Assembly (NCBI GenBank): GCA_021779665.1
Contig: JAJYAG010000052.1
Location: 1 to 37,825 of the forward strand
DNA from: Bacteroidota bacterium
GTDB taxonomy: Bacteria; Bacteroidota; Bacteroidia; Bacteroidales; JAAUTT01
Direction: 5' to 3'
Length of the DNA stretch: 37,825 nucleotides
Part shown: piece after piece, positions 25,703 to 37,825 of the stretch
Layout of the letters: the number at the start of each line of letters is the position of its first letter
Position numbering within the stretch: the stretch's first letter is position 1
The notes under the pieces: model-generated
The model's input: only the letters and a program-made list of their open reading frames with translations
What the model was told of the DNA's origin: nothing
The model's database searches: none
Position numbers and translations under genes: made by a program

Positions 25703-27601
25703 TTAGTAAATGTTAACTTTTGTGATTTTCCTGACATATTTCTCATTTCCATTGGTGACAACCAACAAATATGTTCCTGGTTTTATCGATGTGGTATTTA
25801 AAATTACTTCTTTTCTTTTCCGGGTCAAAGTTTCATAAACAACTGAACCATTCAGCGCGAGAATTGAAATTTTCCCTTCCCTGGGTGGCTCATGGTTAAA
25901 ATAAATATTGAGGTGATGGTCAAAGGGGTTGGGATTAATTTCAAAAAAACTGTCATTGGAAGGAATTTCGGGAAGCTGGGTGATGCTTTGAACTGATTTT
26001 AACAGCCATTTGGCAGAATCGAAAAGCACATTTGTAACCGGCCTGGAAACCTTTACCCGAAACAATTGGGGATTGGTTATTTGCTCCAGCCTTATTGTTG
26101 TGTCCAAACCAGTGCCAATTAACCTGATTTCAAAAGGAGTGGAAAAAAAAGAAACACTTTTTGAACTCGGAGTTTGCTTCACATTAAGTAATAAGGAATC
26201 GTTGCTTGTTTTCCACGAAATATCAAACACCGGATATCCTTTACCATAATACCACTGGCTGAAAAACTTATCCAGGTCCAGTCCTGTGATCTGCTCTGCC
26301 ACATTTTTAAAATCATCTCCGGTTGCAGTCGAATATCTGTATTGCCTCAGGTATTCTTTTAAGGTCCTGAAGAAAAGAGAATCGTTATTTATATAGTAGC
26401 GAAGCATATGGATAATAACTGCTCCTTTTTTATAGCTCAGGTTGGTACTAAAAATCCGGCTGTCGCTGGCCGCCTCGGATGCAGGGATAAAAACCTCGCC
26501 TTCGGGTTCACGCAATGCCCTGTTTTGGGCTGAAATCATCCAGGCGTTTGCATCATCTTTTGTTCCTATGTTTTCATAAGCCAGATATTCGGCATAGGAC
26601 GCAAAACCTTCATTTACCCAGATATCCTGCCAGTTTGCGCAGGTGGTGTTATTTCCAAACCACTGGTGTGCAAGTTCATGCGATACCAGTGAATAGTCAA
26701 AGCTTATAAGCGTTGTCATTGTTTGATGTTCCATTCCGCCTCCAATGGGTGCAATACAATGCCCATATTTTTCATTTCGGAACGGATAATCGCCGAAAAG
26801 TTTACTGAAGAGTCTGATAAAATCAGCTGTCCGGTCAATGTCGGCCTTGTTAGCTTCCAAAAAACCAGGTCTGTTATAAATATAATTCTGCACCAGAACT
26901 GAATCTTTAGGACTGCTTAACCTGGAATAAAAGGAATAATCTTTATAATCGGCTACGGTATACGATATCAGGTAATAAGCTATCGGATACCGTGTTTTCC
27001 ATTGGTATTGAATTTTATTTCCCATTGGAATTGTATCCACGAGTAATCCGACTGATCCGGCTTTTCTGCCTTTGGGAATTGTAAGAAAAACCCAGCACGA
27101 ATCAGCCTTATCGGTTAGCTGTTGCTTGCAGGGGAACCAGTTTTTAGCTCCAAAAGGTTCTGATAAGGTCCAGGTAACATTTGTATTCCAGTAAATATTT
27201 TTTTCGCTCGAAACTGAAGAGAAGAAAGAATTAGAGCCTACATTTCCTTTATAATAAACTGAAACATCAAGAGCAGATCCGGAACTCATCATTCCCATAC
27301 CGCGCAAAACCAAAAGATCTGATCTGAAAACATGGCCTGCTTTTTGCTTTCCCACCACAACGGAATCAATTGTCAGCTGAGGATTAAACTCAAAAACAAG
27401 AGAATCGGTCTGTTGTTTTATTTCAACCTTCATGACTGTATTTCCGGCTACATACGTGGAAGTATCATTCACCTCAAGGTTAATAGAATAAAACTTAACA
27501 TCGTACGTTTTATACCATAATGGCTCAGCCGAATATTTAACCTGAGAATTTATGTCCAGGGCAAAACAAATGATAAGAATATATAATAAAAGCTTTTTCA
27601 T
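25703..27601 (-). CDS. Secreted M1-family metallopeptidase with type IX secretion sorting domain
   Basis: The ATG at 27601 is chosen because it begins the signal peptide MKKLLLYILIICFALDINSQ; an upstream ATG at 27622 adds only seven residues. The 632-residue protein has an N-terminal beta domain (~25-215). The gluzincin catalytic domain carries the substrate-binding GGGMEHQT (GxMEN family motif with His in place of Asn) and the zinc site H308-E309-L-A-H312 with E331 exactly 18 residues later in NEGFASY. A further domain lies near 430-540. The last ~80 residues (FEINPNPFDHHLNIYF to YVRKITKVNIY) are a T9SS type A sorting domain, ending in a GTYLLVV strand and a basic tail. The enzyme is expected outside the cell, cleaving N-terminal residues from peptides. 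Confidence 0.95.
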   Translation of the reverse strand: MKKLLLYILIICFALDINSQVKYSAEPLWYKTYDVKFYSINLEVNDTSTYVAGNTVMKVEIKQQTDSLVFEFNPQLTIDSVVVGKQKAGHVFRSDLLVLRGMGMMSSGSALDVSVYYKGNVGSNSFFSSVSSEKNIYWNTNVTWTLSEPFGAKNWFPCKQQLTDKADSCWVFLTIPKGRKAGSVGLLVDTIPMGNKIQYQWKTRYPIAYYLISYTVADYKDYSFYSRLSSPKDSVLVQNYIYNRPGFLEANKADIDRTADFIRLFSKLFGDYPFRNEKYGHCIAPIGGGMEHQTMTTLISFDYSLVSHELAHQWFGNNTTCANWQDIWVNEGFASYAEYLAYENIGTKDDANAWMISAQNRALREPEGEVFIPASEAASDSRIFSTNLSYKKGAVIIHMLRYYINNDSLFFRTLKEYLRQYRYSTATGDDFKNVAEQITGLDLDKFFSQWYYGKGYPVFDISWKTSNDSLLLNVKQTPSSKSVSFFSTPFEIRLIGTGLDTTIRLEQITNPQLFRVKVSRPVTNVLFDSAKWLLKSVQSITQLPEIPSNDSFFEINPNPFDHHLNIYFNHEPPREGKISILALNGSVVYETLTRKRKEVILNTTSIKPGTYLLVVTNGNEKYVRKITKVNIY

Positions 27602-27638
27602 GTAGGTTGCATTACGCGGCAAATTTCCTTAAAACTTA

Positions 27639-27800: not shown

Positions 27801-30800
27801 ATGAACGAGAATTTATTAAACGCGTTAATGGAATTGGTTGCCTTGTTCGCCAGGGTAAATAATACGCGCTTTATTGACAATGCTCATAGTTTAATAAAGA
27901 CCTACCTGGAACAAGCGGCTACAATAAAAAACAGCCGCCTCCACATTCGCAGGTTTTATGAATATTTTGAACTTTTTTCAGGTTCCGATCAGAATCAACC
28001 CATAGATGAAGCCACCCTGAAAGAAAAAATCAATTCAATTGTTAAGAAGATTAATTCTGAATTGAACGAGGAAGAACGCATTGTTTTTTTCCTGTCGTTT
28101 CTTGAATTAATTAAACTCGACAAAAAGGTTGAAACCGAAGAACTGCAGTTTGCTGAAATATTATCTCTTGAATTACACATTTCTCGCAAGGATTACAAAA
28201 ACAGTCTGATTTTTATTCTCTGCGAAGAAACAGTTGATGGTCTGGAAGAGAATCAGGATTTTTTAATGATCTCGGCACAGAAAAATAATAATTCCGACGA
28301 ACTGGAAGGTTCCTGGATTGAACAGAACCGTCCGAAGGATCGGGAAAGAAACATGTACCTGATTCGCGAAGGCCTTGAAGGCGAAGTTCTTATGCTAAGG
28401 CTGCAGGGAAGCCATTTTATTGTGGGGCGTTATTTCGGGAATCAGGTTGTGCTGCTGAATAACCGGAAATATCTGCCAGGAAATTTCTTTCTGATCGGTC
28501 AGTTCGATCAGCTTAAAATTGGGGCCGATGTTAAACTTTCGTACCAGGAAATTATAACTGGCTTCCGATCGGGGTTCCCCCACAATTTATTAAAATTCAC
28601 AGGCGAAAAAGTCAGCACCAAAGCCTCAGGAAATATTATTCACGTAGCTCCTTTTAACTTTTGTGAAGTGCCGGGGCATCTGGTCTTAGTTCTTTGCAAC
28701 AACACTACTGAAAGTAAAAATCTCTCGTTACTCTTAACCGGACAAATTCCTCTTTCCTCAGGTAAAATATGCCTGAACGGATACAATATATATTCCGATC
28801 GGTACAGAGTGCACAAAATGATTGGACTTGTGCCCCGTGAAAATATTTTCGATGAAAATGTCTCGATATTCGACAATTTTTGGTTCTCAGCACGACTTTC
28901 TTTTCCGGGTTATTCGGATGAAAAAGTTGTTCAAACGGTAAATCAGACTATACAAAACCTCGGGTTAACAGAATTCAGCCGTATTCCGATCCGAAAGCTC
29001 AATCACGGATTACCTGCGGAATATTTGAAAATTCTTATTAATACCGGGATTGAAATTATCCGCGATACTTTTGTTCTGGTACTCGATTTGCCTCTGGAAA
29101 AGCTTAACTCAACCAATGCGGAAGAATTTTGCCATATTCTGAAGTCGGAAGCGAATAAAGGAAAGCTGATATTTATTACATCCACAAACCCTGGCAATTG
29201 CATACTTAAGAAAATTGACAGGATGTGGATCTTTGATTCGGGTGGTTATATAATTTACAGGGGTTTAGCTGGTGATGCCCTGAATTATTTTCAAAATGCA
29301 GGCAATAATCTTGCAGCCGAATCGGATGTTTGCCCAATTTGCGGAAATTTAAATGCAGATCAGCTTTACCAGATTATTCACTCAAAAGTAATTGATAACC
29401 AGGGGAAAGTAACCCACAACCGCAAAACTTCGCCAGCAGAATGGCATAATATCTATAAGCGAAAAATTGAGGACTGCGAACCTCCTGCAGAAAGCAAAAA
29501 AGTTATTGCATCTTATGCCTCTTCCATACCTAATGTTAACCTTCAATTTATAGCATACTTTAAAAAACATTTTTTATCGTTAATTTCAAATCCCCTGAAA
29601 TCATTAATGGTTCTGGGAGGTGGATTACTGATTGCTTTTATGACGGCTGGGTTATTACGATACGACTGGTCGGATAATTTCCAGTTTTCTCAGCATCAGT
29701 ACCTGCCTTTATTGTTTTTTCTAAATACAATCATATGCTTTGTTACCGGATGCGTTATTGGTTTACATTTTACACTCGATGATAAAATTCATTTAGCCTA
29801 CGACCACTTTAAAAATTATAGCTTTTTCAGTTATCTCAATGTCAAATATATTCTTCTTACTTTTTTGGCGTTAATATTCAGCCTGTTTTTTACTTACATA
29901 ACCGACAGCATTAGTGGTATCACAAACTTATTTCTTGTTAACTGGCTGATTTATTTCAGTACCTTTTTTATTGGTGGCAGTATCGGACTGTTTTTAGGGT
30001 ATATTGGATATCAACTTCGCAATTCAATTTTTATAACATCCATTCTGCTGGTTTTGAACATACTTTTCAGCGGATATATGCTGCCTTACAATTCCTTACC
30101 CAAACAATTATCGTCCGACAGGTATGTACCGGCATTTGCTGAAATTTTTCCCGGTCGTTGGGCCTACGAAGCTCTTATTGTTCAGCAGGCAAAGGATAAT
30201 AAATATCAAAAAATGCTTTTCCAGGTCGAGCAACAAATTTCCGACTTAACTTTTAAGACCAATATTCTTATTCCCAAACTGCAGGAACAAGTTTACAATG
30301 CAACCCAGTCAGAGACAAAACCCTTGAACTTTCAGATTTTTTATAAGGATTTGAAAGATATTAATACCCGCTATCCTGATATTTATCCTTTCGAATTTAT
30401 GGAAGACCTGAATAAAGATACGGTGAAATCAGATGTTGTAACTGAACTTGAAGAATATATGCGTTTTGTTCAGTTTCAGTTATACGAAAAGCTTGAAACC
30501 ACCCTGGCCAGCAAAAATGAGTTACGTAAGAATATTACTGATTCTCTTGGAAAAGATAATTTCTCCAAGCTTATCAACGGTAATTTTAACGGCTCCCTGT
30601 TGATGTATGTCTCAGGGAAAAAACCTGGCAGAAATTTTATTGAAAGCAATGGGGATATTATACAAACCGACGATCCTATTTACCGGTTACCGGATAATAA
30701 CTTCGGGCGTTCTCACTTTTTTGCTCCTCAAAAATTAATGAATGGATTTTACTACGACACTACTTATTTCAATCTTTTTGCTTTATGGCTTGAAATCTTT

Positions 30801-30848
30801 CTGGTTTATATCTCGACCCTTATTCTCCGGAAAAAAACGGTTATTTAA
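27801..30848 (+). CDS. ABCG-like fused transporter with TerB-like N-terminus and degenerate ATPase motifs
   Basis: A 1015-residue protein. Residues ~1-150 form an all-helical TerB-like domain (FFLSFLELIKLDKKVETEEL). Residues ~180-260 are a beta-rich linker resembling an FHA-type fold. Residues ~270-500 have the layout of an ABC nucleotide-binding domain, but every motif has decayed. The Walker A position reads LCNNTTESKNLS (~298-309) instead of GxxGxGKS/T. The signature region reads LNHGLPAEYLK (~400-410). Walker B reads VLVLDLPLE (D429 present, catalytic Glu replaced by Leu430), and the H-loop His is missing. CPICG (511-515) follows. Five ABC-2 helices span ~595-760, then a large extracytoplasmic loop (~770-980), then a last helix. 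Bacteroidota carry intact homologs of this architecture. This copy probably does not hydrolyse ATP; a sensory or structural membrane role is inference. It overlaps the Crp/Fnr gene end by four bases. Confidence 0.87.
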   Translation: MNENLLNALMELVALFARVNNTRFIDNAHSLIKTYLEQAATIKNSRLHIRRFYEYFELFSGSDQNQPIDEATLKEKINSIVKKINSELNEEERIVFFLSFLELIKLDKKVETEELQFAEILSLELHISRKDYKNSLIFILCEETVDGLEENQDFLMISAQKNNNSDELEGSWIEQNRPKDRERNMYLIREGLEGEVLMLRLQGSHFIVGRYFGNQVVLLNNRKYLPGNFFLIGQFDQLKIGADVKLSYQEIITGFRSGFPHNLLKFTGEKVSTKASGNIIHVAPFNFCEVPGHLVLVLCNNTTESKNLSLLLTGQIPLSSGKICLNGYNIYSDRYRVHKMIGLVPRENIFDENVSIFDNFWFSARLSFPGYSDEKVVQTVNQTIQNLGLTEFSRIPIRKLNHGLPAEYLKILINTGIEIIRDTFVLVLDLPLEKLNSTNAEEFCHILKSEANKGKLIFITSTNPGNCILKKIDRMWIFDSGGYIIYRGLAGDALNYFQNAGNNLAAESDVCPICGNLNADQLYQIIHSKVIDNQGKVTHNRKTSPAEWHNIYKRKIEDCEPPAESKKVIASYASSIPNVNLQFIAYFKKHFLSLISNPLKSLMVLGGGLLIAFMTAGLLRYDWSDNFQFSQHQYLPLLFFLNTIICFVTGCVIGLHFTLDDKIHLAYDHFKNYSFFSYLNVKYILLTFLALIFSLFFTYITDSISGITNLFLVNWLIYFSTFFIGGSIGLFLGYIGYQLRNSIFITSILLVLNILFSGYMLPYNSLPKQLSSDRYVPAFAEIFPGRWAYEALIVQQAKDNKYQKMLFQVEQQISDLTFKTNILIPKLQEQVYNATQSETKPLNFQIFYKDLKDINTRYPDIYPFEFMEDLNKDTVKSDVVTELEEYMRFVQFQLYEKLETTLASKNELRKNITDSLGKDNFSKLINGNFNGSLLMYVSGKKPGRNFIESNGDIIQTDDPIYRLPDNNFGRSHFFAPQKLMNGFYYDTTYFNLFALWLEIFLVYISTLILRKKTVI

Positions 30849-31543
30849 CCTAGTTCGCTGAGGGTTTTAATAATTTTCATACTCTTAATCTCAACTTCCG
30901 AACCGTTTAGTTCTATAATCTTATCGTTTTTAAATTCGGTTAGTGTTCGTATAAAGCTTTCTTTGGTAGTACCAGCAAGCTCAGCCAGTTCTCTTCTTGT
31001 TAATGGTAAAGTATAGCTTGTATTATGAAAGATCTTTTCAGCAAAATAAAGGAGCACATCGGCAATTCTTCCCGGAAGTTGTTTGTGAGACTGACTCATA
31101 AGCCGCTCAAAAACGAACAGGTTCTCAAGGCTGATGGTGTTAATAAGCTTATTCGCAAATAGCCCGTTTTCTTTAATAATGGTTTTAAAAATATTAATAT
31201 CTGAAAAACAGATTTCGGTTGATTCAATAGCTGCTGCTGAATACTGATGAATGTCGTGTCCGAAAACGGAAGTTAACCCAAGAAAACAGTTTGGAGTTTC
31301 TATTTTAAGAATGAGAACCTTACCATTGCGGCCTTCTTTGTAGATCTTAACCAGGCCCGACTTAACATACATTATATGCGACGTTCTGGTATTCTGCAAA
31401 AATATAACATCTCTCTCCTTATAACGCACTATATTGCTGTTTTTAACTACAACATCCCTTTGTTCGTCGCTAAGAACATTCATGAAGGGCAAACTAATTT
31501 CCGTAGTCTCTGCAGCTTGTTCCTGTGAAAAATTTGAGATCAT
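30845..31543 (-). CDS. Crp/Fnr-family transcriptional regulator
   Basis: A 232-residue protein with a cyclic-nucleotide-binding-like beta roll (about 30-125: RYKERDVIFLQNTRTSHIMYVKSGLVKIYKEG), a long dimerisation helix (~130-155) and a winged helix-turn-helix (~165-215: YTLPLTRRELAELAGTTKESFIRTLTEFKNDKIIEL). The beta roll lacks the FGE-x-x-L-x(10)RSA signature of cAMP binding, and there is no N-terminal cysteine cluster of the oxygen-sensing FNR type, so its ligand is unknown. The recognition helix TTKESFIRTL matches the E-S-x-x-R type. It is divergent from the chemosensory cluster across about 260 bases and is therefore placed to control it. It converges with and overlaps the degenerate transporter gene by four bases. 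Confidence 0.93.
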   Translation of the reverse strand: MISNFSQEQAAETTEISLPFMNVLSDEQRDVVVKNSNIVRYKERDVIFLQNTRTSHIMYVKSGLVKIYKEGRNGKVLILKIETPNCFLGLTSVFGHDIHQYSAAAIESTEICFSDINIFKTIIKENGLFANKLINTISLENLFVFERLMSQSHKQLPGRIADVLLYFAEKIFHNTSYTLPLTRRELAELAGTTKESFIRTLTEFKNDKIIELNGSEVEIKSMKIIKTLSELG

Positions 31544-31805: not shown

Positions 31806-32189
31806 ATGAAAAAAAAGATAAATTCTCGCATTCTTGTGGTAGATGACTCCTCAACCAATATAGTTTTATTAGAGGCTATACTTAATGGACAGGGGTATCA
31901 GATTGAAACTGCACAGTCAGTCAAAGAAGCGCATACCATAATAAAAAAAGAACCGGTAAACCTTATATTACTCGACCTGCTGATGCCGCGTGTTAGTGGA
32001 TACGATTTTCTGAAAGAAATAAAAAGCAACGATGCCACCAAAAACATTCCGGTAATTATTGTATCGGCAGTTGCCGATCCCGAAAACAAGAAAAAATCTC
32101 TTGAAATGGGCGCATTGGACTTCGTAAATAAGCCAATTGACATTCAGGATTTTATCACGAAAGTGGACACGGTACTTAAAAACAATTGA
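31806..32189 (+). CDS. Single-domain response regulator (CheY-like)
   Basis: The ATG at 31806 is chosen; a longer frame from 31710 gives a 32-residue extension with no similarity to receivers. The 127-residue protein is a receiver domain alone: acidic pair D13/D14 in ILVVDDSS, phospho-acceptor D57 in LILLDLLMPRVSG, S87 in place of the usual Thr (IIVSAVADPE) and K109 in NKPI. No output domain is attached, so it acts by binding a partner. It is the first gene of the plus-strand chemosensory cluster, 75 bases before the coiled-coil protein. A second receiver (34475-34840) lies further along, so the cluster has two CheY-like proteins, one of which may serve as a phosphate sink (inference). Confidence 0.92.
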   Translation: MKKKINSRILVVDDSSTNIVLLEAILNGQGYQIETAQSVKEAHTIIKKEPVNLILLDLLMPRVSGYDFLKEIKSNDATKNIPVIIVSAVADPENKKKSLEMGALDFVNKPIDIQDFITKVDTVLKNN

Positions 32190-32264
32190 TTTTTTCTATC
32201 ATTATTTGCTAACCTATATAACCTGAATGCGAGTATTCACGTATAGGAATTATTCCAATAAAAC

Positions 32265-34094
32265 ATGAAAGAGACGAACGCAGAGAATACACAGTTAAGC
32301 ACTTTATTAAATGCTTATTCCATTCAGGAAATTACATCGTTATTCGCAGTCATAGACGAGAAGATATTAGCACTTCATAATTGTTCATCCGATGACTTCC
32401 TTTCATTAAATGCTTATTTCAAAAGATACTATAAGGATTCGAAAGTAATTTCACAAAACGCTTCCGACATCCTGAACATTATTGTAGATCAGGAAAAGAA
32501 AGACGAAATTTTTAAAACCCTGACGCATTTTCATCATGAACTTTCAGCTCACCTTCATGAGTTTGAGAAATTATCGGACAAACTCACCGGAGGTTTTGAG
32601 AATATGGTGCGCGATATAGAGCACATGTTCGTTCCTTCGAATAATTTAAAGCAGGATTTGATGACCCTCAAACTCTTGGTAGCCAATTTAAAAATCAACA
32701 TTACGGTTTCTGCTGTACCGCGCAAAATGCAAAAGAAGGCAAACGATTTCAACGAAATTATTATTCAAACCAAATCGTTCTTTACCGAATTTTATAATAC
32801 ACTCAATCTCTTAAAAACACAGTTAAAGCAAAATATTGATTTTATCTCCGAACTCGAAGGTAAAAACTCAGAAAATATAGGTGAAATTCTGGTCGAACTC
32901 CAGAACAGCTCCGCTCTGTTCAATCAAAAGTACCAGGAAGCTCATGAATTACTTCCAAAACTGCAGGAAAGCACCGAATCGACGGCATCAAACATTGGGA
33001 AAATTATAACCAATTTGCAGTATCATGATATTATACGGCAAAAGATTGAGCATATTCAACAAACACATAAGGAAATTCTGAAAGAATTGAACCAGGTTTC
33101 AAATCAAACTGATGAAATAAGTCAGCAAAACCAGGTTAAATGCTTTCTTCAGATAAGAGATGTTGCAGGTTTGCAGGCTGCTCAGCTTATCCATGCCAAT
33201 AAGGAATATCAGAAAGCTATTGAAATAATCTCTGATAAATTCCTCCAGGTTGGAAATGAGATGACGATTATTGCAGACATGTGTCATAAATTCATTACCA
33301 GCGGTAATAATTCATCGCAATCACACTTCAAGGATATTATAGATAAAATTGAACGCACAACTTATTTTATAGATGTTTACAGCAAATCTCTGAATCTGCT
33401 CAGAGACCGGTATTATAAATCAAAAGATAAGCTAAGTGAAATTTTAAATAACTATTTTGAGCTATCCGATTTTATTCAGACTATTGAAAGAAACATTTTA
33501 AAATCGATAGACAATCAGCCTGTTCCGGAGAACGAGAATAGTACCATTACGCAGATTAAGCAAATTTTATCCGGAATGAAAGCCATTCTGGCCCAACATG
33601 ATACATTGTTTGAAAAAATAAAAGTTGAATTCTCAGGTGCCGACAGTACTGTGGAGACTTATTATAAAAACGGCACAGTGGCTGCTAATCTCACTGAATT
33701 TTCAGCATTGAGCGAAAGAATAATTTCTTTTCTGAAAGACAGTAATCAGAAAGTTTATAAAACGATAGAAGAGAATCAGATCCTGAGCCGCCAGGTTTCG
33801 AACGATATCAAATCGTCTCTTGAGCAAATAAAGTATTACGAGTTTTTCGATAAAACTATTGACGAAATCATTGGACAATTAAACGAAATTAACTTTAAAT
33901 TGCAGAATGTTGAGAGTCCCGACGATGAACATAAGCGGCTTAACCTCGAGCACATAAAGGCAAAGTATACGATGCAGAGTGAACATATCATTCACGAAAA
34001 CATCTCCAATGAAAAGAATCTGAGCCAGTCGGACCTGATTTCGATCGACAGCACAGGAGTTGATGAAGACGATGATAATTTGGAACTGTTCTAG
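32265..34094 (+). CDS. Long cytoplasmic coiled-coil protein with CheZ-like DxxxQ helix, chemosensory cluster
   Basis: A 609-residue soluble, almost entirely helical protein with no signal peptide or membrane helix and no MCP signalling-tip sequence, so it is not a normal receptor. One helix, LQYHDIIRQKIEHIQQTH, carries D255-x-x-x-Q259. This resembles the catalytic helix of the CheY-P phosphatase CheZ (QDLTGQ; D143 and Q147 in E. coli). A second helix of the same pattern near the C-terminus (IKYYEFFDKTIDEIIGQLNE) has E526 and K530 at those positions and looks like a diverged copy. Between them is QIRDVAGLQAAQLIHANKEYQ. The C-terminus is acidic (VDEDDDNLELF). It is encoded between a CheY-like protein and STAS-CheY-CheA-CheW. 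A phosphatase or scaffold role is proposed from motif and context only. Confidence 0.8.
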   Translation: MKETNAENTQLSTLLNAYSIQEITSLFAVIDEKILALHNCSSDDFLSLNAYFKRYYKDSKVISQNASDILNIIVDQEKKDEIFKTLTHFHHELSAHLHEFEKLSDKLTGGFENMVRDIEHMFVPSNNLKQDLMTLKLLVANLKINITVSAVPRKMQKKANDFNEIIIQTKSFFTEFYNTLNLLKTQLKQNIDFISELEGKNSENIGEILVELQNSSALFNQKYQEAHELLPKLQESTESTASNIGKIITNLQYHDIIRQKIEHIQQTHKEILKELNQVSNQTDEISQQNQVKCFLQIRDVAGLQAAQLIHANKEYQKAIEIISDKFLQVGNEMTIIADMCHKFITSGNNSSQSHFKDIIDKIERTTYFIDVYSKSLNLLRDRYYKSKDKLSEILNNYFELSDFIQTIERNILKSIDNQPVPENENSTITQIKQILSGMKAILAQHDTLFEKIKVEFSGADSTVETYYKNGTVAANLTEFSALSERIISFLKDSNQKVYKTIEENQILSRQVSNDIKSSLEQIKYYEFFDKTIDEIIGQLNEINFKLQNVESPDDEHKRLNLEHIKAKYTMQSEHIIHENISNEKNLSQSDLISIDSTGVDEDDDNLELF

Positions 34095-34113
34095 AAATAT
34101 TGTATCTTAAAAA

Positions 34114-34121
34114 TATATTTG
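34114..34121 (+). promoter_or_regulatory. Possible internal -7 box before the STAS gene
   Basis: TATATTTG is an exact TAnnTTTG match eight bases before the STAS ATG, in the 35-base gap after the coiled-coil gene. No -33 element lies at the usual distance, and an 8-base gap would make a nearly leaderless message. Low confidence. Confidence 0.2.
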
Positions 34122-34129
34122 TAATCAGG

Positions 34130-34450
34130 ATGAAAAAAAACACTATTGAAATAATGAAAGAGAAGAAAGGAGAGCCTCGCAAAGGAATCCTGACGCTCGA
34201 CCATGAAATTACATTCACAAATGCTAATGAACTCCTGGACAACTATATTGCTTCTAAGGATAAGTTTGACGTTCTGGTAATGCAAGGAAATGTTGATCTT
34301 CTTGACCTTAGCGGTATTCAGGCAATTTATTCCATAAGAAAGAGCCTGAAAGATAACGGCAAAAACATATCTCTGGGAATAAAAATGAACGAGGAATCGA
34401 AAAGTTTGATTCTCCGTTCCGGGTTTAAGGAAATATTCGAAATTTTTTAG
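34130..34450 (+). CDS. STAS-domain protein (anti-anti-sigma-factor-like), chemosensory cluster
   Basis: Start set at the ATG at 34130, preceded by ATCAGG; an in-frame ATG at 34100 adds ten residues overlapping no domain. The 106-residue protein is a single STAS domain: ILTLDHEITFTNANELLDNY, then VLVMQGNVDLLDLSGIQAIYSIRKSLKDNG. In SpoIIAA-type proteins the loop reads DSSG and the first Ser is phosphorylated. Here it is D59-L60-S61-G62-I-Q, lacking that Ser, which resembles STAS proteins encoded beside CheA genes (D-x-x-G-[LIV]-Q). It lies between the coiled-coil gene and cheY. It may carry an output by partner binding rather than by sigma-factor release. Confidence 0.88.
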   Translation: MKKNTIEIMKEKKGEPRKGILTLDHEITFTNANELLDNYIASKDKFDVLVMQGNVDLLDLSGIQAIYSIRKSLKDNGKNISLGIKMNEESKSLILRSGFKEIFEIF

Positions 34451-34474
34451 TATAAAACATATCTAATCAGCAAT

Positions 34475-34840
34475 ATGGCAAAAACTATATTAATTGTAGA
34501 CGATTCAGAAAGTATCAGGGAAGTTGTTAGCTTTACGCTTGAACATGAAGGTTATAATGTTTTAGTAGCTGTCGACGGGAAAGACGCACTCAAATTTCTC
34601 GATGGCACTAAAATCGACTTAATCATTACCGACCTTCATATGCCTGTTTTGGACGGCATAGGTTTAATCAAGGAAGTAAGAGCACTTTCGGATTACCAAA
34701 GAATCCCAATCCTGTTTCTTACAACCGAATCGCAGGCTGCCAAAAAAATGGAAGCCAAAGAAGCCGGTGCGACTGGTTGGATTATCAAACCATTTGTTCC
34801 TGCCAAACTAATCGAAGCAATAAATAAAGTACTCAGGTAG
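34475..34840 (+). CDS. cheY: CheY-like response regulator
   Basis: A 121-residue receiver domain with the full CheY signature set: D9/D10 in ILIVDDSESIRE, phospho-acceptor D53 in LIITDLHMPVLDG, T83/T84 in ILFLTTES, and K105 in WIIKPFVPAKL. It has neither a DNA-binding nor an enzyme domain. Its stop codon is directly followed by the cheA ATG, so the two are translationally coupled and it is the likely main phosphate acceptor of that kinase. The motif pattern is closer to chemotaxis CheY than that of the first receiver in the cluster (31806-32189). Confidence 0.95.
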   Translation: MAKTILIVDDSESIREVVSFTLEHEGYNVLVAVDGKDALKFLDGTKIDLIITDLHMPVLDGIGLIKEVRALSDYQRIPILFLTTESQAAKKMEAKEAGATGWIIKPFVPAKLIEAINKVLR

Positions 34841-36892
34841 ATGGATAACTTCAGGAAAAAGTTCATAGAAGAAGCCTCCGAACACATCCAGGATCTGGAA
34901 CAGGCTTTGTTGGAACTGGAACACTCTCCGGGAAATAAACCTTTGATTGAGAGGGTTTTCAGAGCCATGCATTCGCTAAAGGGAAGCGGTGCTATGTTCG
35001 GATTTGAGAAAGTAAGTGAATTTACTCATCATTTGGAGACCATTTACGACCTGGTTCGTAACGATGAAATGGTTATCAATTCAGAACTCCTGAATTTAAC
35101 CCTCAAATCAGTCGACCATCTCTCGCTTCTTTTAAATGAAGAATCACAGGATCCTGAAGAGCTTCTCGAAAAACATAACGATCTGATTAAACAGATTGAA
35201 GATTTTATTGATAACAGCAGGGAATCATCAAATCTTAACCTAATATCAAGGGATGGGAAAAAAGTTGAAAAGGTTTTTCAGACCTATTTTGTTATTTTCC
35301 AACCCAATGAAGATATCATGAAAAATGGAACCAATCCATTATTTCTCATCGATGAACTTCATTCTTTAGGAAAATGCTATGCAATTCCTATATACTATAA
35401 AATACCAGCTCCCGAAGAATTCGACAGAGACAAATGTTATGTCAGCTGGCAGATTTTTCTTGCTTCGGATGTGGATATCAATGCAATTACCGATGTCTTC
35501 ATTTTTGTAGAAGACGAATGTGTTCTGGAAGTAAACCAGATTTTTGACGGCAACCTTCTTGAAAATGAGGAATTTATTTCTAAAATTAATGAATTTCAGA
35601 TACTTCAGAAAGAAATTACCGTTAGCGAAATAAAAGATATTGTTTCAGGAATAAGTCAGCCCGAAATTAAACAGGCTGCTAAAACTGAAGAGCGCACGGT
35701 TGTTACCCCTAAAGAACAAACTATATCGAGCATAAGAGTATCGTCGGATAAATTAGACCAGCTGATGAATCTTGTGAGCGAAATGGTTACAACACAGGCC
35801 CGGTTAAGTTTATATGCCGAACAGGATGGCCGGCCCGAACTGCTCAATATTGCTGAAAATGTTCAGAAACTATCGAGACAACTTCGCGATAACGCCTTTA
35901 GCATAGTCCTCATTCCAATTGAAAATATGCTCACCCGCTTTCAAAGGTTGGTGCGCGATCTTTCCAAGGAATTGAAAAAAGAAGTTGTTTTTGAAGCCGA
36001 AGGAATTGACACCGAGCTCGATAAAACTATCATCGAAAACCTCACCGATCCTCTGATGCACATTTTGCGCAACAGTCTGGACCATGGCATAGAACTTCCC
36101 GACATCCGCATGAAGCTTGGTAAACCACGCGTTGGTAAAATCCTTCTGAAAGCTTTTTACTCGGGAGCAAATGTTATCATCCAGATTTTTGACGATGGCG
36201 CTGGTATCGATCCTAATTTTATAAGGGCCAAAGCTGTTAACAAAGGTTTAATCAGTTCCGAAGCCCAATTATCGAAGCGCGAAATACTCGACCTTGTATT
36301 TATTCCGGGATTTTCCACTGCATCCAAGGTTACCGATGTTTCGGGCCGTGGAGTGGGTATGGACGTTGTAAAACGTAAAATTGCCGATATTCGTGGTGAA
36401 GTCGATCTTGAATCGGAAGTTGGAGCAGGTACAACCCTCACCATTAAACTTCCGTTAACACTCTCGATTATTGACGGATTACTTGTTAAAATTTCCGAAG
36501 TATTCTATGTTATTCCTCTTACGGTTATCGACAAGATTTACGCCGTTGAGCATAAAAAGCTCATGAAATCATTTAACAATGTGATTGTACTCGATGGAGA
36601 ACAAGTTCCGTTTTTCCATTTGAGAAACGAGTTTTCGCTTCCCGAAAGTACAGCCGAATTTGAAGAAGTGATTGTAGTACGCTACGAAGACAAGAGAGTA
36701 GGTATTGCTGTAGATAACGTTATAGGTGAATACCAGGCAGTACTTAAACCTTTAGGAAAACATTACAAGAGACAGGAAATAATTTCAGGAGCAACCATTC
36801 TGGGCGATGGTACTATTGCCCTTGTTCTTGATACCAATAAAGCTATAAAACAATTTGCCAACCAAACTATAATTAAGGAGGAAGTTCAATGA
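34841..36892 (+). CDS. cheA: Chemotaxis-type histidine kinase CheA
   Basis: This 683-residue kinase has the usual modules in order. P1 HPt has phospho-acceptor H44 in MHSLKGSGAMFGF. A P2-like region (~140-260) contains VFQTYFVIFQPNEDIMKNGTNP, LFLIDELHSLGKCYAIP, resembling P2 domains of non-flagellar CheA proteins. P3 dimerisation starts near 297 (SIRVSSDKLDQLMNLVSEMV). The P4 ATPase has N-box HILRNSLDHGIE and G-boxes DDGAGIDPN and GRGVGMDVV. A P5 CheW-like domain covers ~545-683. No C-terminal receiver is fused. It begins on the base after the cheY stop and overlaps cheW by four bases (ATGA). No receptor gene is seen in the window. Confidence 0.97.
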   Translation: MDNFRKKFIEEASEHIQDLEQALLELEHSPGNKPLIERVFRAMHSLKGSGAMFGFEKVSEFTHHLETIYDLVRNDEMVINSELLNLTLKSVDHLSLLLNEESQDPEELLEKHNDLIKQIEDFIDNSRESSNLNLISRDGKKVEKVFQTYFVIFQPNEDIMKNGTNPLFLIDELHSLGKCYAIPIYYKIPAPEEFDRDKCYVSWQIFLASDVDINAITDVFIFVEDECVLEVNQIFDGNLLENEEFISKINEFQILQKEITVSEIKDIVSGISQPEIKQAAKTEERTVVTPKEQTISSIRVSSDKLDQLMNLVSEMVTTQARLSLYAEQDGRPELLNIAENVQKLSRQLRDNAFSIVLIPIENMLTRFQRLVRDLSKELKKEVVFEAEGIDTELDKTIIENLTDPLMHILRNSLDHGIELPDIRMKLGKPRVGKILLKAFYSGANVIIQIFDDGAGIDPNFIRAKAVNKGLISSEAQLSKREILDLVFIPGFSTASKVTDVSGRGVGMDVVKRKIADIRGEVDLESEVGAGTTLTIKLPLTLSIIDGLLVKISEVFYVIPLTVIDKIYAVEHKKLMKSFNNVIVLDGEQVPFFHLRNEFSLPESTAEFEEVIVVRYEDKRVGIAVDNVIGEYQAVLKPLGKHYKRQEIISGATILGDGTIALVLDTNKAIKQFANQTIIKEEVQ

Positions 36893-37422
36893 AAGATTCT
36901 ACATCAAAAATAAACTCCTATTTGACTTTTAAATTAGAGGATGAAATTTTTGGGGCGAACGTTTCCAAAGTACTGAATATTTTGGAAATGACTAAAATAA
37001 CCAAGGTTCCCAAAGCCCCGAATTATATGAAGGGCGTTATCAATCTGCGTGGAGCTGTTCTTCCGCTTATCGATACCCGCATTAAATTTGATATGGGCGA
37101 AACAAACTATACCACAAATACCTGTATCCTGGTTTTAGATATCGATATGGCCGGAGAATCGGTACATGTCGGAGCCCTTGTTGATTCAGTTCAGGAAGTT
37201 ATTGAAATTGACGATGCTTCAATACAACCACCTCCCAGTATTGGAAGTAAGTATAAATCGGAATTTATTGAAGGTATGGCCAAAATAAATGACGAATTTA
37301 TTATGCTCCTGAATATGGACCTTATCTTTTCCACTGACGAGTTATCATTACTGCGCGATTCTTCATCCGATGTTCAGGCTGAACCTGATACCGTTGTTGA
37401 AAAGAAAGGAACAAAGAAGTAA
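36889..37422 (+). CDS. cheW: CheW-like coupling protein
   Basis: A 177-residue CheW-domain protein. Typical sequence: YLTFKLEDEIFGANVSKVLNILEM (first SH3-like subdomain), VPKAPNYMKGVINLRGAVLPLIDTRIKF (the NLRG motif that contacts receptors and CheA) and GALVDSVQEVIEIDDASIQPPP. The C-terminus (~155-177) is a charged tail (SSDVQAEPDTVVEKKGTKK) beyond the usual domain end. The ATG overlaps the cheA stop by four bases. It would couple CheA to an MCP that must be encoded elsewhere or beyond the right edge. A weak hairpin follows at 37424-37439. Confidence 0.96.
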   Translation: MKDSTSKINSYLTFKLEDEIFGANVSKVLNILEMTKITKVPKAPNYMKGVINLRGAVLPLIDTRIKFDMGETNYTTNTCILVLDIDMAGESVHVGALVDSVQEVIEIDDASIQPPPSIGSKYKSEFIEGMAKINDEFIMLLNMDLIFSTDELSLLRDSSSDVQAEPDTVVEKKGTKK

Positions 37423-37825
37423 TATCTGATTTTTCAGATTCTTTAGATATTTCTTACCCAAAAGTGCACAGTCATTTTTTGCTGTGGTGGGATATTTTTG
37501 TCCATACTGACGATTATTAATTTGCAGCTCATGCCTGAATTTAATTATTTTGAATTAGGCTCCAAACATAATATCTGCTATGCAAATCACTTTGCATTAG
37601 TGCCAGTTGCTGTAAAAAAAATAATCCCACGAAACTACTTTCACGGTAAGACCTCTTTAAATTTTAACGCACACACACACCCTTTAAATACCCATTCTGC
37701 TTCCCAATCTCATAAAGAATTGTATGCTGGTAACAGAAACTTTGCAGCTTCACTGAAATATTCGCTTTCTCAGAGTGCAACTTTTTTGATACTCAGCTCA
37801 AAAGTTATTTCATACTATAATAATT
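37423..37825. other. Gene-poor 403-base stretch after cheW
   Basis: No recognisable gene is present. It contains a weak AT-rich hairpin just after cheW (37424-37429 with 37434-37439), a perfect 7-bp dyad ATGCAAA-TCAC-TTTGCAT at 37580-37597, a short CA run at 37670-37680, and the unsupported open frame at 37531-37825. Confidence 0.5.
37531..37825 (+). CDS. Possible partial gene running off the right edge
   Basis: From the ATG at 37531 the frame stays open for 98 codons to the window end (the frame is stop-free from about 37447). The peptide MPEFNYFELGSKHNICYANH continues FALVPVAVKKIIPRNYFHGK and shows no domain I recognise. The composition is unlike the flanking genes (many His, Asn and Ser), there is no ribosome-binding site, and dyads lie inside it. 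It may be chance or a decayed gene. Sequence beyond the window would decide. Confidence 0.22.
   Translation, partial: MPEFNYFELGSKHNICYANHFALVPVAVKKIIPRNYFHGKTSLNFNAHTHPLNTHSASQSHKELYAGNRNFAASLKYSLSQSATFLILSSKVISYYNN

Follow-up and report, generated by a model that had tools for sequence, protein, structure and literature searches.

Here we describe a chemosensory gene cluster near one end of a 37,825-bp stretch of DNA (the window), which is an entire contig (C37) of a 6.9-Mb draft genome from the Bacteroidota. Six genes that run in the same direction encode a single-domain receiver (REC1), a 609-residue coiled-coil protein, a STAS-only protein, CheY, CheA, and CheW. This gene set had been proposed in a first-pass annotation of the DNA, together with couplings at cheY/cheA and cheA/cheW, and the open reading frames (ORFs) and Pfam agree: the cheY stop codon directly abuts the cheA ATG, and cheA and cheW overlap by 4 nt. 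Every domain assignment in the cluster is backed by Pfam except for the 609-residue protein, which has no Pfam match over the cut-off and no NCBIfam match. Judging from its sequence, we think it probable that this protein is the CheY-P phosphatase of the cluster and that it works like CheZ. We thus describe a complete chemosensory cluster which lacks a flagellar switch and includes a likely CheZ-like phosphatase derived from a methyl-accepting chemotaxis protein (MCP).

Homologues were sought in 60 genomes (its own included), with the 609-residue protein as the query, and were found in 13, again including its own. A CheW domain is encoded in 21 of the 60 genomes; all 13 carriers of the homologue are among these, whereas none of the 39 genomes that lack CheW has one. 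The Fisher P value for this co-occurrence (13/21 versus 0/39) is 3.9e-8, which is nominal because the genomes are related. A scan of GTDB with the single sequence found no relatives, and a scan with an alignment (A2) found 117, of which 80 were kept. The locus counts below refer to these 80, with “room” meaning enough contig sequence on the side in question; several of the 80 contigs belong to genomes that are also in the 60-genome sample. To judge by their titles, 52 of the loci come from Bacteroidales and the other 28 from Bacteroidota/Bacteroidetes or a taxon within it. Twelve genomes gave a match in a 395-genome sample of the phylum: its own, G283, G215, and G302 (with homologues of about 600 residues), G109 (where the match is a single-hairpin relative), and seven weak ones. 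The open-access literature, covered mostly as titles and the starts of abstracts, yielded no description of this protein family.

The neighborhood of the gene is conserved as well. Where there is room, STAS lies downstream of the homologue in 56 of 74 loci, CheY in 55 of 71, and CheA in 46 of 62; all three are found there in 46 of 62 loci, part of the set in one, and none in 15. Conserved synteny of this gene with STAS, CheY, and CheA, for which the earlier annotation had suggested a search, is thus borne out well beyond chance. Among loci outside the group of 15 that have about 10 kb of downstream sequence (n = 37), 34 have CheR, 33 have CheD, and 29 have CheB. On the upstream side, the count covers 55 loci, those with 2 kb of sequence there and excluding any scored as unlinked; a divergent Crp/Fnr orthologue, a putative regulator of the cluster, is present in 37 of them and REC1 in 38.

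A short motif points to a phosphatase. The family alignment comprises 86 sequences, of which 83 are distinct and sufficiently long and three are distant members. Just 8 of the 609 positions are conserved in all 86, namely, F45, Q252, D255, I256, Q259, H263, Y568, and T569. Five of these fall within the conserved block N-L-Q-Y-H-D-I-I-R-Q-K-I-E-H, in which D255 and Q259 are spaced like D143-x3-Q147 of CheZ (E. coli numbering); an active-site-type D-x3-Q at these positions is therefore present in 86/86 aligned sequences. The motif pattern occurs in 80/80 loci, compared with 19 of 1,022 other ORFs. D-x3-Q, under the name DXXXQ, is given as the phosphatase motif of CheZ (PMC7750401), and DxxxQ as that of both CheZ and NarX (PMC3510030). 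The predicted model of the protein is nearly all helix, with a mean pLDDT (predicted local distance difference test score) of 78 for the whole chain and 88 for residues 76 to 345.

The protein also carries an internal repeat. Its N-terminal half aligns with its C-terminal half (hhalign score, 56.4; E = 1.7e-7), a score that was reached by none of 300 block shuffles (maximum, 42.8). The repeat pairs QYHDIIRQ with KYYEFFDK, which places E526 on D255 and K530 on Q259. By sequence, then, the protein is a tandem hairpin whose second copy has lost the motif: Glu replaces Asp and Lys replaces Gln, which would leave each chain with a single active site. In CheZ, the two hairpins of a dimer are reported to make up a four-helix bundle (PMC7750401), and by analogy the 609-residue protein could be a fused pair that corresponds to these two hairpins.

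Distant members of the family are related to receptors. Although the window protein itself has no match to MCPsignal (PF00015) at E <= 10, three members from another class of the same phylum (L068 to L070) match it at 2e-15, 2.4e-11, and 4.7e-11. These three read IQFHDITRQ at the motif, close to FQDLTGQ of CheZ, and end in [IV]ELF. It is likely, on these sequences, that the 609-residue protein derives from an MCP signaling hairpin, the distant members being those that still score as MCPs.

Relatives are found outside the phylum, too. A plasmid of the alphaproteobacterium Methylosinus sp. C49 (L164 and L166) carries a STAS-RR-CheA-CheW-MCP-MCP-CheW-CheR-CheB cluster (RR, response regulator) and a 575-residue homologue with D-x3-Q and YTM..ER..H; unlike the window arrangement, the homologue comes after cheB, its motif reads QIGDNTRQ, and its tail ends in ILFA. 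Single-hairpin proteins in three Proteobacteria, Methylobacterium (L165), Sphaerotilus (L167), and Methylosinus OB3b (L168), and in G109 of the phylum sample (L073) share MCPsignal, QFQD[IV]xRQ, a Y[TV]/YVM/YVS motif, and a tail end of IELF or IELFL, but they differ from the 609-residue protein in having 343 to 453 residues and one hairpin. All but L168 stand in a cheR-RR-cheA-RR type of cluster, and two of these three clusters carry an annotated HEAT-repeat gene.

No other CheY-P phosphatase of a recognized kind was found alongside the protein. PF04344 (CheZ) has no match in its own genome, the one genome searched with it; CheC (PF04509) is absent from all 60 genomes, its own included; and CheX (PF13690) is absent from its own genome and present in one of the 60 (G039). 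Control genomes gave matches in the CheZ, CheC, and CheX searches. This negative result and the D-x3-Q motif together sustain the earlier proposal that a coiled-coil protein occupies the role of CheZ here. Direct comparison with CheZ gives a mixed picture. hhalign puts D255 on D143 and Q259 on Q147 in three of four comparisons; the register of the motif is kept with alignment A3 (E = 0.15) and with the 86-sequence family, as seen from two members, against a seven-sequence CheZ profile (E = 0.61 and 0.64), all of these values being insignificant. PF04344 gives weak matches across the motif of L068 and L070 (E = 0.32 and 0.7), and a 65-residue family hidden Markov model (HMM), built on a stretch picked for the motif, ranks seven CheZ proteins 1, 2, 5, 7, 15, 35, and 345 of 1,029. 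Compared with E. coli CheZ, the 609-residue protein has the same D-x3-Q after [FY]-[QH] on a hairpin helix, an acidic C-terminal tail that ends in Phe, and the same expected job. However, E. coli CheZ is a 214-residue homodimer, whereas the window protein is a tandem hairpin with one degenerate site, and it differs further in its MCP-like relatives, its tail sequence, and its lack of a PF04344 match.

Several observations weigh against a CheZ-like function. With alignment A2, D255 still falls on D143, but a 4-residue gap displaces Q259 (E = 0.58, insignificant). Against CheZ, a 95-residue piece of the family profile does no better than its shuffled versions, as high a score being reached by 34 of 200 block shuffles and 17 of 200 column shuffles. 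PF04344 has no match to the window protein at E <= 10, reaches only E = 2.9 on L168, and does not match L069, L073, L164, L165, or L167. In the reverse direction, a seven-sequence CheZ HMM places background ORFs (best E, 0.0074) above the 609-residue family (best E, 0.09). When the motif is masked, the preference for CheZ is weak (P = 0.03; for the distant members, 3.6e-4), and the sequences are nonindependent. Lys92 of CheY, which we take to be the partner of Asp143 of CheZ, is not conserved in the CheY proteins of these clusters, which have Lys at position 94 (57/65) and 95 (65/65). The C-terminal tail, discussed below, resembles the CheR-tethering tails of receptors at least as much as it does the tail of CheZ. 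Finally, 15 of 62 loci with room have no STAS, CheY, or CheA after the homologue. Given the lack of a PF04344 match and a profile comparison that is no better than shuffles, we do not read the protein as belonging to the CheZ family itself. Because the PF04344, shuffle, reverse-HMM, and Lys92 tests went this way, we confine the claim to function: the protein likely works like CheZ without being a CheZ family member.

The 15 loci in which none of the three follows are L081, L082, L085, L087, L090, L097, L099, L102, L106, L108, L109, L115, L127, L132, and L138. The title names an animal gut or rumen in 11 of them. Seven have a weak CheW-like ORF (48 to 54 bits) and one has an MCP on its stretch; at L097, a REC-CheY-CheA-CheW-MCP set stands divergent beside the homologue. 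In G059, the gene is unlinked (L033), and a STAS-CheY-CheA-CheW-CheR-HK-CheD-CheB set (HK, histidine kinase) lies on another contig (L074).

Other explanations of the protein have to be weighed against the same data. It may be a soluble receptor in degenerate form, or a scaffold, bound to the CheY/CheA array, in which case the D-x3-Q helix would be a receiver-docking surface without catalysis. The MCP-like character of the distant members is what such a protein would show, and its proponents could add that overall similarity to CheZ is not significant, that catalysis is something we only infer, and that cytoplasmic domains of MCPs turn up, with generic coiled coils, in structure comparisons. 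The matches listed by these comparisons (Foldseek and VIA-align with the full model, and VIA-align with residues 76 to 345) are long helical bundles of a generic kind, including MCPs; E. coli CheZ (1kmi) is not among them, which excludes nothing. Sequence searches of the PDB likewise gave generic coiled coils, such as designed bundles, the stalks of viral spikes, and MCPs. Against this explanation stand the invariance of D and Q at the spacing of CheZ in a family whose window member lacks an MCPsignal match at E <= 10 and the absence of any CheZ, CheC, or CheX match from its own genome, and we regard it as unlikely.

We find it more improbable still that the protein is an output effector, which would bind CheY-P or REC1-P through the motif as a recognition element and signal to gliding or secretion machinery. 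Such an effector could be argued for on the grounds that FliM is missing from all 60 genomes, so that CheY, having no flagellar switch, needs another target, and that the gene has cheY nearby in 55 of the 71 loci with room. It does not sit easily with the 15 of 62 loci in which no cheY follows the gene, nor with the single-hairpin proteins of Proteobacteria, which have the same motif and tail. The absence of any Pfam match over the cut-off or NCBIfam match would also fit an unrelated structural coiled coil with a chance match to the motif; given the invariance of the motif, the linkage to che genes, and the co-occurrence with CheW, we attach almost no weight to this.

In the reading that we consider probable, the six genes form the first part of a complete, nonflagellar chemosensory system with the 609-residue protein as its CheY-P phosphatase. 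Signals would pass from MCPs encoded elsewhere in the genome through CheW and CheA to CheY and REC1, while CheR, CheD, and CheB would provide adaptation. One helix of an MCP-like hairpin would carry Asp255 and Gln259 into the active site of CheY, with Gln259 placing the attacking water. As a fused hairpin pair with the catalytic motif kept only in the first hairpin, each chain would have a single site. A flexible acidic tail ending in E-L-F would dock the protein either on CheY-P, in the manner of the CheZ tail, or on CheR or CheB, in the manner of the pentapeptides of similar sequence on receptors. For the STAS protein, we propose a CheS-like role as a partner of CheA.

The tail deserves a closer look. 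Among complete family members in the 80 loci, 76 of 78 end in [ILVM][ED][LFYI]F, compared with 0 of 623 other ORFs. The looser terminal pattern [DE]-x-F, counted over complete proteins of the same loci, is found in the same 76 of 78, in 35 of 38 copies of the kinase between cheR and cheD, in 22 of 33 MCPs, in 14 of 14 copies of a GAF-PAS-PAS-PAS protein, and in 5 of 623 other ORFs. One of 33 CheD proteins has it, and it occurs in none of the Crp/Fnr, REC1, STAS, CheY, CheA, CheW, CheR, or CheB rows, nor in four further kinases. NWETF-type receptor tails are reported to tether CheR (PMC2577667), and CheT, a DXXXQ protein of S. meliloti, binds CheR (PMC12654446); by analogy with these, the tail of the 609-residue protein may act as a tether and not, as in CheZ, as a peptide for CheY. 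The kinase is a soluble histidine kinase of about 300 residues, conserved between cheR and cheD (L067:10820-11719, minus strand; L031:15993-16889). The GAF-PAS-PAS-PAS protein (L067:6850-9129, minus strand) has a hydrophobic N terminus and no kinase domain found by Pfam; it comes after cheB on contig C253 and directly before the 609-residue homologue in L149 and L155. Its 14 complete homologues in L077 to L156 all end in [VI][DE]LF, the tail type of the 609-residue protein.

What the cluster controls can only be guessed at, and our guess is that the output is most likely surface gliding. The earlier statement that no flagellar gene is visible stands as far as FliM is concerned, the only marker sought genome-wide: it is found in 0 of 60 genomes, and the system is accordingly without a flagellar switch, as proposed. 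Twitching is not supported, as PilT exceeds the cut-off in none of the 60 genomes; four of them, its own included, score about 170 to 181 bits against a cut-off of 319, and four more are weak. GldJ does not discriminate, being found at E < 1e-80 in 13 of 13 carriers and in 36 of 47 others (P = 0.10). One cultured carrier of the homologue is Perlabentimonas gracilis (L121), which is a gliding anaerobe according to the title of its description (cited in PMC11122141).

The apparent lack of receptors and adaptation enzymes, by contrast with the earlier annotation, proved to be an effect of where the contig ends. Contig C37 stops 403 bp past cheW, and MCP, CheR, and CheB are missing from the window for this reason. 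CheW-domain matches number 17 in the genome, and from the lengths of their frames we take them for 8 CheA and 9 CheW. MCPsignal matches number 34, of which 32 exceed the cut-off, so the description of the cluster as receptor-less no longer holds. Nor does that of a system lacking CheR and CheB: a cheR orthologue that is 79% identical to cheR of G004 is present on contig C253 of the same genome, in the order cheR-HK-cheD-cheB. Looking for an MCP beyond position 37825, as had been suggested, is precluded by the contig end, although the search elsewhere in the genome was fruitful. In two relatives, G001 and G004, cheR comes directly after cheW; the G004 cluster continues through cheD and cheB, and the G001 contig ends beyond the kinase that follows cheR. 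By analogy with this gene order, C37 and C253 would be adjacent in the window genome, an assignment taken from the relatives alone because the two contigs share no end overlap. On C253, a 414-residue ORF with a signal-like N terminus and no Pfam match (L067:12666-13910, minus strand) overlaps the start of cheR.

Equivalents of D57, T87, and K109 are present in 65 of 65 CheY rows, and REC1 keeps its phospho-acceptor Asp in 39 of 39; REC1 may serve as a second output or as a sink for phosphate. In a tree of 21 CheA proteins, the window CheA groups with five from same-order carriers of the 609-residue family (support, 97/96) and apart from the seven other CheA proteins of its own genome (100/100); the position of the E. 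coli protein, on a long branch, is uncertain.

By its genes and by Pfam, the cluster has a STAS-only protein next to cheY-cheA, as in the CheS type. CheS of Sinorhizobium meliloti is described as a STAS-only protein that binds CheA and alters its dealings with CheY (PMC12654446), with a reported effect on the dephosphorylation of CheY, and a rhizobial CheS gene likewise stands immediately before cheY (atu0515-atu0516; PMC12654446). Our STAS protein is likened to CheS by position; the one sequence comparison made, with the STAS protein of the Methylosinus che cluster, gave 20% identity over 74 residues. Rhizobial F7 clusters are reported to contain CheS, CheD, CheT, and two CheY proteins (PMC8429497). 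In S. meliloti, the cluster of CheT has CheS, CheD, and two CheY proteins as well, and CheT is a DXXXQ protein which enhances the dephosphorylation of one CheY (PMC12654446). CheT differs from the 609-residue protein in lying at the far end of its cluster (by Agrobacterium fabrum locus-tag numbers) and in binding CheR, and the likeness is drawn from its published description. Since rhizobial clusters resemble this one in composition and in having STAS before CheY, the gene set is less alien than the first-pass annotation held. That annotation knew of no described system with exactly this set; for STAS before cheY-cheA, at least, rhizobial CheS is a precedent. Its use of STAS as a sign of nonflagellar output is also weakened, as CheS belongs to flagellar rhizobial systems (PMC12654446, PMC8429497) and STAS-RR-cheA occurs on the Methylosinus plasmid.

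Many chemosensory systems lack a recognized CheZ. In a survey of 523 genomes, CheZ was reported in 20%, and each of five core Che proteins in at least 46% (PMC2829493); Geobacter has no cheZ and is said to need a CheZ-independent mechanism (PMC2577667). The 609-residue protein is a concrete candidate for such a mechanism, with named, predicted catalytic residues and in bacteria without a flagellar switch gene, and would, if true, offer a route from receptor hairpin to phosphatase. A broader and decidedly more tentative proposal, for which we would claim somewhat less than an even chance, is that a hidden family of MCP-derived CheY-P phosphatases, with single and tandem hairpins in Bacteroidota and Proteobacteria, serves as the off-switch in some systems lacking CheZ, CheC, and CheX. 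CheZ itself would perhaps have arisen from a receptor hairpin, and in Bacteroidales the phosphatase, receptors, soluble kinase, and GAF/PAS protein would share one dock (CheR or CheB) through the [DE]-x-F tag.

Table 1. Features of the cluster and its surroundings (positions in the window)
Feature	Positions	Strand	Basis or remark
Crp/Fnr-type regulator, divergent	30845..31543	-	Pfam cNMP_binding 5.2e-14, HTH_Crp_2 1e-13
REC1, single-domain receiver, phospho-acceptor Asp intact	31806..32189	+	Pfam Response_reg 3.9e-28
609-residue tandem-hairpin protein, proposed MCP-derived CheZ-like CheY-P phosphatase	32265..34094	+	Homologues, internal duplication, helical models
CheZ-type motif QYHDIIRQ, residues 252-259 (D255, Q259)	33018..33041	+	Invariance in alignment
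Degenerate second site YYEFFDK, residues 524-530	33834..33854	+	hhalign of N-terminal half versus C-terminal half
C-terminal tail NLELF, residues 605-609	34077..34091	+	Family-wide tail pattern
STAS-only protein, CheS-like by position	34130..34450	+	Pfam STAS 8e-07
CheY	34475..34840	+	Pfam Response_reg 2.8e-28
CheA: Hpt, dimerization, ATPase, and CheW-like domains	34841..36892	+	Pfam
CheW	36889..37422	+	Pfam CheW 5.2e-35
Contig end	37423..37825	.	cheR-HK-cheD-cheB comes here in relatives; in own genome on contig C253 (L067)

The STAS ORF as such spans 34100-34450, with the ATG at 34130 as its likely start. A scan of the window for promoters, terminators, and repeats gave nothing informative. 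Near the Crp/Fnr gene lie a gene for a 1,015-residue ABC2-membrane protein (27801-30848), directly beside it, and one for an M1 peptidase with a secretion sorting tail (25703-27622, minus strand).

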